From positions 248,001-312,000 of the forward strand of contig LODT01000022.1 in assembly GCA_001606155.1 (NCBI GenBank): a DNA stretch of 64,000 nucleotides, in the 5' to 3' direction. Positions 1,595 through 39,400 of the stretch are shown here, piece after piece; the stretch's first letter is position 1, and each line of letters starts with the position of its first letter. Both the position numbers and the translations under genes were made by a program. Origin of the DNA: Tieghemostelium lacteum. Its lineage: Eukaryota > Evosea > Eumycetozoa > Dictyosteliales > Raperosteliaceae. The notes under the pieces were generated by a model. The model ran no database searches. It was given only the letters and a program-made list of their open reading frames with translations, and had not been told where the DNA came from.

Positions 1595-1667
1595 AGTGTA
1601 TAAGATATCAAGTGTATCAAGACATAATAAATCATGTTTAGTTGATATACTGTCATTACTATTCACT
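1595..1667 (-). promoter_or_regulatory. SECIS element of the SELENOF gene
   Basis: This lies on the minus strand in the 3' UTR, just past the stop codon. Read 5' to 3', helix I pairs AGTG (1667-1664) and following bases with the strand ending CACT at 1595. The 5' quartet ATGAC (1656-1652) faces TTGAT (1611-1607), giving the U.U, G.A, A.G and C.U non-Watson-Crick set typical of SECIS cores. Helix II has about ten pairs: AGT/ACT, one A.C mismatch, then TATCAA/TTGATA. The apical part carries an AAA run on its 5' side (1639-1637) and a mini-stem ACAT/ATGT, as in form II SECIS elements. The folding was done by hand. Confidence 0.85.
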
Positions 1668-1693
1668 TTATAAAAAGTAGGGTCTGTGCTTGT

Positions 1694-2304
1694 TTATAAA
1701 TTATTTTCCTTTAAGTATTCTTCAAGGTTTTCAGTTTTCCAACTATCAATACTTAAGGTTTCTTCTTTTCCTTCATTGTCTTTGAGAACGAGTTTAGGGT
1801 TGGATCCTGATTCATACTATATTAAATAAACATTCTCTACATGTTAATACTCTATAATTATCTATACTAATCAACTAAAATACAAACTCTAACAGATAAT
1901 TTCTTATAATCTCCAGATTTCTTATCAATAAACTCTTTAATGTGAGGAAAAGCACCTAAACGTCATTTGCAAATGACTAATTCAGCACCTATTAAAACCT
2001 TTTTACTGTTTTGTGACTCTTTAGAGCAACATCTTTTACATTCATCTATAAATTCTATTATATTTTAAAGCTGGTTAGTTGATGGATTTAAAAGTTAATA
2101 TACAATGAAAGTCATACCATTGTCACCAACAAATTCCTCAAAGTCAGCACATGTTGAACACAACAATGCCTCTGTATATCCTAAATCGTGGCATGATAAG
2201 GAGCTATCACCACTTTTTGGTGGCGCAACTCCTGTACATACCACTAAACTTATCAGTAGTATAATAAATGAAAAAGGAATTATCTTCCTTCTTTCACTTA
2301 TCAT
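1694..2304 (-). CDS. Selenoprotein F (15-kDa selenoprotein, Sep15), UGA-encoded selenocysteine
   Basis: An ER thioredoxin-like selenoprotein; in animals it binds the glycoprotein-folding sensor UGGT and works in disulfide quality control. Three exons, 2304-2118, 2054-1888 and 1816-1694, join in frame into 158 residues (human 165). Introns are 63 and 71 bp with GT-AG borders. Residues 1-25 form a signal peptide (MISERRK, then a hydrophobic core). The Cys-rich region reads SCHDLGYTEALLCSTC and later CKRCC. An in-frame TGA at 1963-1965 falls exactly where the family has selenocysteine: C-K-U-RLGAFP here, C-G-U-KLGRFP in human. The C-terminal half (YESGSNPKLVLKDNEG, then LSIDSWKTENLEEYL) aligns without gaps. 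A SECIS lies downstream. The longer upstream Met at 2409 would overlap the neighbouring gene, so the inner Met is preferred. Start codons of this gene and the bromodomain gene are 72 bp apart. Confidence 0.92.
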
Positions 2305-7746: not shown

Positions 7747-9459
7747 ATGTCAATTCCAAATTATTTTATACAATCAATATTAGAATACTCTATTAATCAA
7801 AATGTAAAATTAAACTATTTAATAGGATTTATAAGGAAATGGACTATGATATCTAAACAATGGAACAGAGAGATCATTCACAAATTAAGAATAAAGAAAC
7901 CAATTCATTTATCTAGATTCACTAAATCTGATAAAATATTGAAATGGATTGAGTTATCAAATAGATATCAGATTATATATCAAGTAGATTTAGGGGATAA
8001 AGTTAGTAGTACATGGTTATCAATGATTGCAGATAGAGTAACTGTAATTACAAATTTTGGTATAAAAGACGAAGATTATTTAAGACAGTTCTCGAATATA
8101 CAGTTAGTTACATTTAAAATGTCAAGTGAAACTCAGTTGAATACTTTGAAGTCTGGGTATAAAGGTAATGGAGTTGAATATCAATTTAGTTTTGCTACTT
8201 TGGACTATATATTCTCAAATTTGGTTATTGAGGATAACAATCTATTGGAGGCAATGTTCAACAAGAACAATTTCACTTCCATTTCATTGTACAAGTTCAC
8301 GATATTTCCAAAACAAAAGTTTAGCTATCAAGGCATGAGTTTATTAAACTCTTTGGATCTAAAGTTTATAGGAATCGAACAAAATATACTTGTTGAATTA
8401 GTTGAGAAATCCCCTAATCTCAAGAGACTGATTTTGGTAAATGTATCTATACATAGAAAATCATCTATTGAACCCATATTAGACTCTATAGCACTAAGTA
8501 ATCATAAATATTTGGAATATCTATTTATAAAAAGTGAGTTAATTTCACCATATAATAAGATATTACCAATCATCAATAGAACAACAGCTAAAGATGTATA
8601 TATAAACATTCCTCTATCTATTTCTCAGGTGTCTGATGTTACGACGTCAACCATCTCCAATACCAGTATACAATCATTTAGCTTCCGCAACAATCCAATG
8701 AAAACTGAAGATAAAACATTGGATGATTTCAGTTTGATTCAGGTGTGGAAAGATCTGTCATCATTAACATCAGTTACCATTCACAGTGATGTAGAATATA
8801 TACATTATATCAAACAAATGAAGAATCTAAAAACACTGAGAATTATTGATTCTGTGATAACAAAAACTCCAACCACAGATCTGTTACTTCAACTGGATAT
8901 TGGATCTCTAGTAGATTTAACTATTGTAAACAAAGAAATATTATCAATTTCCAAAGGTTTACAAGATAATCATCATCTAAGAGTTATTTCAATACATAAA
9001 GTTGAAATAGAAGATACCATTACAATTCTGAAAAGTAATCATCCAACACTCATTGATATCACCATCAAAGAATTGATTGCAATTGGTAGAGATCTAATTC
9101 TACTATTTTTACAAGCACTACAGAATAATCAAACTATCAGACATTGTAGGATACCTTTTATAGATTTTACTAAACTCAATATTTTAGACTTGTTAAACTA
9201 CAACTATTATTCATTTATAATTGATATTATAGGTGTGAACAGAACATTACTGTCATTGGAATTACCACACCACAAAAGCTCTACACCAATAACCCAACTT
9301 CAACTGAACAACTTTGAACAGTCACTCTCTAGCAATCCTGTATTTCAACAATTACATATACCAAAAACTTTGAAATCTGATCAAAAATCAATTTTAAAAA
9401 ATATATTAAACAAATTCTCAATTCAATATCTAAATAAATCAGAAATTTTAATTATGTGA
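7747..9459 (+). CDS. F-box-like/LRR family protein, copy 2 (subtype A)
   Basis: 570 residues, one exon. The F-box-like block is MSIPNYFIQSILEYSIN ... MISKQWNREIIHKL. The second segment reads WIELSNRYQIIYQVDL, closest in this window to copy 4 (WVELAERYQLEYQVDL), so these two are grouped here as subtype A. LRR landmarks are KSPNLKRLILVNVSI (about residue 220), NTSIQSFSFRNN, LIQVWKDLSSLTSVTIH and SNHPTLIDITIKELI. The gene is 130 bp upstream of copy 3 in the same orientation. The frame is intact, which argues for selection, but function is inferred only from the F-box-like N-terminus. Confidence 0.87.
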   Translation: MSIPNYFIQSILEYSINQNVKLNYLIGFIRKWTMISKQWNREIIHKLRIKKPIHLSRFTKSDKILKWIELSNRYQIIYQVDLGDKVSSTWLSMIADRVTVITNFGIKDEDYLRQFSNIQLVTFKMSSETQLNTLKSGYKGNGVEYQFSFATLDYIFSNLVIEDNNLLEAMFNKNNFTSISLYKFTIFPKQKFSYQGMSLLNSLDLKFIGIEQNILVELVEKSPNLKRLILVNVSIHRKSSIEPILDSIALSNHKYLEYLFIKSELISPYNKILPIINRTTAKDVYINIPLSISQVSDVTTSTISNTSIQSFSFRNNPMKTEDKTLDDFSLIQVWKDLSSLTSVTIHSDVEYIHYIKQMKNLKTLRIIDSVITKTPTTDLLLQLDIGSLVDLTIVNKEILSISKGLQDNHHLRVISIHKVEIEDTITILKSNHPTLIDITIKELIAIGRDLILLFLQALQNNQTIRHCRIPFIDFTKLNILDLLNYNYYSFIIDIIGVNRTLLSLELPHHKSSTPITQLQLNNFEQSLSSNPVFQQLHIPKTLKSDQKSILKNILNKFSIQYLNKSEILIM

Positions 9460-36409: not shown

Positions 36410-39400
36410 ATGTCAAATCTAAAAAAAAGAAAAAGTATAGATCTGTTCTATTTTTAACAAAATTTTTTAATAATTTTAATCATATCAAGATATTAATATT
36501 GCTTTTAAAATTAATTAAAAAGATGAAATACCACCACCTGAGGATTTGGTAGCTTTAGGAGGAGGAAATAATAGGATCAGAAAACAACCAATTTCCAATA
36601 TAGATCAAGATACACCATCATCACTTACCAATGGAGGAAATGATCATTTATTAAAAAAAATGAAATTGGATCATCAAACTGTACAACAGCAACAACAACA
36701 AAAGATACAACAACAACAACAGCAACAACAACAACAACAGCAACAACAACAACAATATCAACACCAGCATCACTCAAACAACAACAGTAATAACAACAAC
36801 AACAGTCAACTCTATGATGTAAATATATTAGTTGACATGGTTCAATCTGAAATTGAATTGGATAAAAAGATTAAGATTATAAAGACAATTGTACAGACAA
36901 TGAGATTATATGCGAATCAGAATGAACCTGATAAGAATGCTTATAGTAGTTTATTGGTATTGGCAAAGAGGTCACCTGACCTATTTTCTAGTGGAGAATT
37001 ACTCGAGCCCTTGTTGTCACTATTGAGAAAAGATCCTATTCATGTACAGCCAAAAAAGAATAATCTTCTCTCATTGTTGGCATGTAATCTTTTGATGTCT
37101 GGGTATGAGAATGTATCCGATTGGCCATTACCTTTCATGCAAGTGTATATTGAAGATGCAATTGCTGATAGACAATGGGTAGACGACCCAAACTGCAAAT
37201 ACTTTGTATCTAATATCATAACATCATTACCTAGTAACAAACATCTATTTCAACAACAACCTTCATTACAATCTACCAACATCACTTCAAATTCACTTTT
37301 AGTATCATCACCACCTTCAACAACTACAACCACAACAACAACAACTGTAAATAGCCCAACCAATGGAAATAAACAAACCCCAACAACAGTTTCAGCACCA
37401 ATGCTTAATAAACAACTACCTGTACAACCTCAACAATCACTTGTTAAACCACCCCCAATTCAACAACCTACACCTCAACAGTCTTCAATGGACGAGGAAA
37501 CAATTGAAGAAGAGACAATGGTTGGTAAGGTTAACTCTGCAACTCAGATTTCCACATTTAAGATTAAATCTAGATTTACATCGATCCAATCAGATATAGT
37601 TAGATATATAGTAGTTTTGATTAAATCTTTTAGCAGTAGTAATAATCCAAGAGGTTTATTAAGATTATTGAATTTGACGGTAGGATACAAGGAATCGAGA
37701 TTAGAAGGATCCATGATCATTGACCAGTTACTAAACAATACCAGTATGTTCAGACTCTCTAAAGACTATCTGCAGATTCTCATTGCAAATTGTACAGACA
37801 GCACACCCGATGATTTAAAAGTTGCTCAGAATCTTCTACGTATACAACACAACATTGATGTCTTATCCACACTCTTACACAATAATCCTATATATCCAGT
37901 GATTGCATTAAGACAGGCTGTGGAAAGTGAGTTGGAGATGACAAGCACTTCATCCAGTAGCTCTGGAACTCATAATAAGATGTTGTCAGGCCAGAAATCA
38001 AAGCTTACCACCATCTATAAATACCTTAGTGCCAATAGGGCTGAAGAGGAACTCGCTTCCATTTTTAAGGAATATGCATTAAAGGACGATACCCAGAGAC
38101 CAAGTCTCAAGATCTTGGTTAGAAAGATACTAAAGTCACTCCCTAACTTGAATATTGCCATTTTCTGTGAACATATTCTATCGATAAGTCAGAAAGATGA
38201 GTATATATTCCCTCAGTCCACTGTAGAGTCACGTGAGAAATGGGCAGTGAATCTACTGAACATGGTCTGCCATATACTCTTTATGATACCATCCATGCTT
38301 TCTCTAGACTCCAAAGACGCAATGAATAACATGAGATTAATGATATCACAAATTGAAGCTACAGCTGTACATTGGTGTCAAAATCTTCAACCTACTTTCA
38401 TAACCTCTATCAACACTGTAGTTGACCTCATTCAAAAGGTACTGTATTTTGAGCCTATAAACTCATATTTTCAACAACCTAGCACTGGTGGAGGTAGTAG
38501 TTCAATGTCACAAAGTTCAGTATCAGTACAACAGATTCTAGAAACTGATAGAACAGCCTACAGAATACTTTCCAATGAAATTCCAGTCCAGGAATCAACC
38601 ATACAGATTCTCTTACAAATTGCATCTGATCACACATCTCTAAAGAAAGAGATACTCGATTTGGTTGATGGATTAATTAAAAGAGCTATTATTATCAGTA
38701 CTAAACTGGGATTGCATTCAGTTATCAATAAACCAGTTTTTGGTGAACAGATTCTCATGTTGTCTAAAATCGATAGTACCAATGACTCTGGATCTACCCT
38801 CACACTCTCATATACCAATCTATTCTGGCAATCTACCATCTTAGTTTGCCTCCTCATTTGTCTCTCTCCGACCAACATTGGCACATTCTTTTGGGCTAAT
38901 GTTCCAACTATTCGTCTACTCATTGAAATGATTATTACAAAAAATTGGAAGTTTCCACCATACCTTCCAAAACATCTCCAACTCACTCACCAATTCCATT
39001 TCTTTCAACAAAATGAATCAATTCAAAAATCAAAAGAATTAGAAATTATTTCAAGTAAGTACTAAATATTTATATCATTTAAATCAAATTAAATACTAAT
39101 TTATTATATTTTTTTATAGAACTAAATTTAAATTTTGAAATTATGATTTTGGATTTGAAAGGTGTTGCTAGACAACCACCTGAAGATGCAATTGATAAAC
39201 TTCAAAAATTAGATAGTGACTTTCATTTAGGATTTCTGCTGTGTAGTTGTAGGCAACCAGATTATTTATTGGAGATTATGTCAAATCAAGATTCAAAACA
39301 GTCCATGCAATGGCTGAATCCTATCATTTATAATGATTTAAGAACTCTTGATATAATGCCACCTATTTGTATTTGTGAAATTCTGTTATCACTTGACAGT

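Follow-up and report, generated by a model that had tools for sequence, protein, structure and literature searches.

A Sep15/SELENOF selenoprotein gene with an in-frame TGA and a SECIS element in the dictyostelid Tieghemostelium lacteum

The stretch of DNA analysed here (64 kb, hereafter called the window) carries on its minus strand a gene that, with a probability of about 96%, is functional and encodes a selenoprotein of the Sep15/SELENOF family. The gene structure, the in-frame TGA codon, the SECIS element, the genes of the selenocysteine (Sec) machinery and six N-terminal cysteines can all be read from the DNA itself. Sep15 with Sec is not new as a kind, since it was published for Dictyostelium discoideum in 2007 (PMC2375036). 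The finding corrects a gene model that a simple ORF caller shortens, and a Sec glutathione peroxidase (GPx) gene encountered elsewhere in the genome is the more novel by-product.

Results

Gene structure

The Sep15/SELENOF coding sequence comprises 477 nt in three exons (minus strand, 2304-1694) and encodes 158 residues followed by a TAA stop codon (Table 1). In translation both splice joins are in frame, and the exons as well as the two GT..AG introns lie where the first-pass annotation had placed them, so that its three-exon model of 158 residues holds. For the acceptor of intron 1 an in-frame alternative exists 9 nt downstream, which would replace GDN-EFIDECK by GDN-DECK. The same annotation had stated that an ORF caller detects only the first exon; indeed, the sole entry for this gene in the ORF list is a 69-aa ORF (2304-2095). 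The exon 2 TGA, found in the context VICK-U-RLGAFP, aligns to the Sec/Cys site of the family, as had been proposed. Neighbouring frames in the window encode a 118-aa protein consisting mostly of a bromodomain (2377-2733, plus), a MaoC-like protein (3221-2730, minus) and a DUF1765 protein (106-1299, plus), the frame of the latter extending beyond the window start.

Table 1. Features of the Sep15/SELENOF gene (positions in the window)
Feature	Position	Strand	Description	Evidence
Exon 1	2118..2304	-	hydrophobic N-terminus (signal-peptide-like), start of Cys-rich domain	translation, splice join
Intron 1	2055..2117	-	63 nt, GTATGA...TAATAG (GT..AG)	
Exon 2	1888..2054	-	end of six-Cys domain, start of Sep15_SelM redox domain	
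In-frame TGA as selenocysteine	1963..1965	-	residue 93, C-K-U	
Intron 2	1817..1887	-	71 nt, GTTTGT...ATATAG (GT..AG)	
Exon 3	1694..1816	-	remaining redox domain, stop TAA 1696-1694	
SECIS	1607..1656	-	apical AAA and mini-stem, 3' UTR	SECIS scan, covariance model, pair counts
AATAAA	1588..1593	-	likely polyadenylation signal directly past the SECIS	function suggested by the sequence

Family membership and redox motif

With the TGA taken as Sec, the product matches the Pfam family Sep15_SelM (PF08806) over residues 88-155 with E 1.9e-20 and 73.1 bits (cut-off 26); the 92-residue form ending at the TGA shows no Pfam family match up to E 1. A PDB search up to E 1 returned a single match, the Sep15 entry 2a4h (E 1.5e-9, query residues 82-154). 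Hereby the alignment spans the TGA, and the second active-site Cys of a CTC motif falls on the TGA codon; because of this motif we take 2a4h to be fly Sep15. The genome-wide PF08806 search recovered exon 3 with 33.1 bits, above the cut-off of 26, and exon 2, with one TGA inside, below it (21 bits). No second Sep15 gene was found above the cut-off in this exon-by-exon search of the genome. A Sep15-like match on another contig (C4; 15.8 bits, E 0.29) was rejected, as the frames there show no family likeness by eye. A pattern search for viral relatives of Sep15 matched 31 stretches, of which none was confirmed.

The N-terminus is hydrophobic, with a Kyte-Doolittle mean over 15 residues of up to 2.85. 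The N-terminal domain holds six cysteines (C38, C49, C52, C68, C71 and C72), which fit the six invariant cysteines described for the UGGT-binding domain (PMC7687155), and an additional cysteine at position 23 lies inside the hydrophobic stretch. The redox motif is C91-K92-U93 and shows the spacing given for Sep15/SELENOF, namely CxU or CxC with one residue in between, as opposed to CxxU in SelM (PMC9304195). With regard to the middle residue, the first-pass annotation, which saw Lys where animals have Gly, was overstated: the comparison stands for human SELENOF (CGU, -256.3 mV) but not for fly Sep15 (CTC, -225 mV) (PMC9304195). The middle residue therefore varies among animals, and Lys in CKU by itself shows no function.

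SECIS element

The hairpin that had been noticed after the stop codon does carry the features of a SECIS. It reads ATGA-C-AGTATATCAA-CTAAACATGATTTATTATGTC-TTGATACACT-TGAT, with an ATGA/TGAT core preceded by AGUA, a helix II with 9 of 10 pairs (the tenth being an A-C mismatch), an apical AAA and a mini-stem of 6 pairs. The core ATGA at 1656 is located 38 nt past the stop and, in the spliced mRNA, about 235 nt past the UGA. A loose SECIS scan yielded two places in the window (this element and 8126-8178, plus), compared to 1, 0, 1, 1, 1 and 4 places in six Markov sequences of window length; the hairpin alone is therefore not significant in 64 kb of such AT-rich DNA. Plain folding of the hairpin is likewise weak (z -1.50), with 16 of 200 shuffles folding equally well. 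The weight of the Sep15 SECIS comes instead from its placement, 38 nt beyond the correct stop codon, and from its score with a covariance model. This model was trained on three other SECIS elements of the genome (those of SelK, SPS2 and the deiodinase-like gene), the Sep15 SECIS being excluded. The SelK SECIS used in this training set had been missed by the loose scan and was chosen by eye.

Of the refuting results named by the first-pass annotation, the lack of a SECIS score at this place did not occur: in the window, the model ranks the Sep15 SECIS first with 33.0 bits (rough E 0.00037) over 1663-1601, followed by 17.9 bits for the next match. Two further elements outside the training set reach 55.9 bits (MSP-like gene) and 44.1 bits (GPx), and apparent noise at loci selected by pattern goes up to 23.4 bits (L041, E 0.047). 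The Sep15 SECIS has the lowest score among the six SECIS elements of the genome, which we count against it. When the six are aligned on the model, 88.0% of 83 cells pair and 13 of 14 pairs are changed on both sides; none of 500 shuffles reaches any of five measures, and sliding the partners by 1-3 columns lowers pairing to 31-53%. Because the structure itself guided this alignment and the six genes come from different families, the pair counts show a common fold, not descent. All six elements have GTA ahead of the ATGA core, a feature that is partly built in, as the GPx and MSP-like elements were found via patterns requiring GTAATGA.

Rfam, which includes a SECIS family, gave no SECIS in the window at the curated threshold. 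Up to E 10 it likewise returned no SECIS in the window, with five other matches all far under their thresholds. At the five loci with the other SECIS elements of the genome, Rfam searched at E up to 10 was equally blank (5 of 5), and it is therefore uninformative as a SECIS test here.

Pattern searches of the whole genome were used to collect further elements. One SECIS pattern gave 82 matches (control 36), all of which were scored. Nine of ten helix II pairs are present in four of them, i.e. the elements of Sep15, SPS2, the deiodinase-like gene and contig C23, and eight of ten in two, the MSP-like SECIS and 37216-37269 (minus) of the window. The latter lies antisense to an 801-aa ORF and was taken as chance. 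Another pattern with 154 matches (control 66) was followed by a covariance-model scan of 25 of 30 loci among the matches listed, the five left out overlapping others; hereby the MSP-like SECIS scored 55.9 bits, ahead of L041. A further pattern gave 98 matches (control 70), scored as 73 plus 25, with 7 pairs as the best of the 25. Its top five are the SECIS elements of the deiodinase-like gene, GPx, Sep15, the MSP-like gene and SelK (8 or 9 pairs), the next score being 7.4. SECIS elements that differ in shape, or in the letter following the core, would escape these patterns.

Sec machinery in the genome

The genome search covered 23.33 Mb in 43 contigs, and all six Sec factors sought (tRNA-Sec, SPS2, SepSecS, PSTK, eEFSec and SBP2) were found. 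The Sec machinery that the first-pass annotation had asked to look for, i.e. SPS2, EFSec and tRNA-Sec, is accordingly present, and that annotation's interpretation of the locus, SELENOF with a Sec codon plus a SECIS, is supported. The tRNA-Sec scores 65.6 bits (cut-off 47) with anticodon tca, and SPS2 185.6 bits (cut-off 125), the latter having its own TGA in KGUGCKIP and its own SECIS. In 14 control genomes the tRNA-Sec and selD searches matched throughout (14 of 14), with only 5 and 2, respectively, above the cut-off. SepSecS was found with 601.7 bits and a PSTK-like gene with 72.6 bits (79.8 for the whole ORF), below the NCBIfam cut-off of 382.35. The eEFSec candidate, with 216.9 bits below the NCBIfam selB cut-off of 242.25, has eEFSec 5izk as its best PDB match (E 1.6e-124). 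A different locus considered for this factor (L008) was rejected, as it reads as EF-Tu with an N-terminal extension, mitochondrial by eye. SBP2 was located via its L7Ae domain among 6 matches and has SBP2 7zjw as best PDB match (E 8.4e-19). The SBP2 homolog (locus L023, 508-2256, plus) has 582 aa and is shorter than the 854-residue PDB chain; slime moulds are described as having an SBP2 that lacks the N-terminal extension of mammals (PMC2746813).

Candidate companion selenoprotein genes

For D. discoideum five selenoproteins have been described: Sep15, SPS2, SelK, a deiodinase-like protein and MSP (Lobanov et al. 2007, PMC2375036). In the present genome, SPS2, SelK and a deiodinase-like gene were found at loci L005, L015 and L016 (minus), each with an in-frame TGA and a SECIS. 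For SelK the Pfam match (32.6 bits, above the cut-off) falls on an upstream exon; GS-TGA-AK and the SECIS are carried by a stretch further on that was joined to it by eye. The match of the deiodinase-like gene (90.8 bits) contains a single TGA, read as SFT-U-PPF. An MSP-like gene (locus L029, 452-1260, plus, contig C2) was found through its SECIS (1501-1549). Its codon 20, in exon 1, is a TGA; another one arises only when the two exons are joined at a GTATGT donor (intron 718-794). The product shows no Pfam family match up to E 0.01. D. discoideum MSP has two Sec residues (PMC2375036), and for this membrane-protein-like gene the name MSP is inferred. Judged from sequence, the SPS2, Sep15, SelK, deiodinase-like and MSP-like candidates would equal the five selenoproteins of D. 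discoideum, and these families together with the Sec machinery would now be shown in a second genome.

A candidate Sec glutathione peroxidase

The sixth candidate is a GPX1/3-type GPx gene (locus L084, minus, 4895-4161, contig C23) with two exons and 216 residues, a TGA at codon 69 and a SECIS at 4079-4032, which has 9 of 10 helix II pairs besides its covariance-model score of 44.1 bits. The N-terminus is hydrophobic and signal-like by eye. The Pfam family GSHPx is matched with E 8.8e-33. In the PDB, GPX1, 2, 3 and 6 and an epididymal secretory GPx score 151.5-160 bits, and the remaining 35 of 41 matches, GPX4 types included, at most 108.6 bits. The TGA aligns with residue X of 1gp1, which we read as the Sec residue of bovine GPX1; in 2f8a a G stands at this place. 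No prokaryote relative was confirmed among 16 stretches matched by a pattern whose query detects close relatives only.

The selenoprotein table of the 2007 paper on D. discoideum contains no GPx (PMC2375036), and the account of Acanthamoeba consulted here gives only Hyr1-type GPx with no UGA (PMC8038987). The literature searched, with most subscription journals outside its scope, listed no title dealing with a dictyostelid Sec GPx.

Discussion

Two other readings of the Sep15 locus have to be weighed. The TGA could be a true stop, in which case the gene would yield only 92 residues, as a small secreted protein with six cysteines, the remainder staying untranslated or decaying. Standard translation does end at the TGA, and all six cysteines precede it. 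Beyond the TGA, however, the frame remains open across an intron and holds 62 residues of the redox-domain match (94-155), and the SECIS follows the downstream stop. Moreover, SECIS elements of this kind also follow five further genes with in-frame TGA codons in the genome, and four of those five are in Sec-carrying families, GPx by alignment. The SPS2, SelK and deiodinase families carry Sec. We therefore regard a true stop as very improbable. No more credible is decay of the locus, as a pseudogene of a selenoprotein or as a copy that degenerated recently, for which the lowest SECIS score of the six in the genome would speak. Such decay is at odds with a gene that has no frameshift, clean GT..AG introns and all six N-terminal cysteines kept, and the exon-by-exon search of the genome gave no second Sep15 gene above the cut-off, the lone C4 match lacking a supporting frame.

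A functional Sep15 gene would, by analogy with the family, work as follows. After removal of the two short introns from the pre-mRNA, the ribosome would meet the UGA at codon 93. Selenocysteine would be inserted there in place of a stop, directed by the 3' UTR SECIS, to which SBP2 would bind together with eEFSec and Sec-tRNA. The N-terminal signal would direct the product to the ER, with UGGT as the probable docking partner of the six-Cys domain, and the C-K-U site may reduce wrong disulfides of misfolded glycoproteins. Sec insertion, ER location, UGGT binding and the reductase role are thus assigned here from what is described for the Sep15 family.

Taken together, it is probable that this genome encodes a larger selenoproteome than the one published for D. 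discoideum, comprising the same five selenoproteins and in addition a secreted Sec GPx of the GPX1/3 type, which would be either ancestral and lost in D. discoideum or acquired elsewhere, with the second Sec codon of the MSP-like gene assembled across an exon junction. With the Sec GPx, other dictyostelid genomes could tell whether social amoebae gained or lost an animal-type peroxidase.

Compared to known systems, the protein shares with human SELENOF the six-Cys N-terminal domain and the CxU redox motif (PMC9304195, PMC7687155), but has Lys where the human protein has Gly between Cys and Sec. A KDEL-like C-terminus is absent, as is reported for Sep15 in the same two sources (PMC9304195, PMC7687155). 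The redox domain is alignable to that of the Sep15 structure 2a4h, from which it differs in that the latter has CTC and is without Sec. Relative to the D. discoideum form described in PMC2375036, the SECIS has AGUA instead of UGUA ahead of the core and, beyond it, an A-C instead of a U-U mismatch. Among the closest known systems is D. discoideum Sep15, which contains Sec, was reported in 2007 as what 75Se labelling indicated to be apparently one of the major selenoproteins, and occurs with the same set of companion selenoproteins as the candidates here (PMC2375036).
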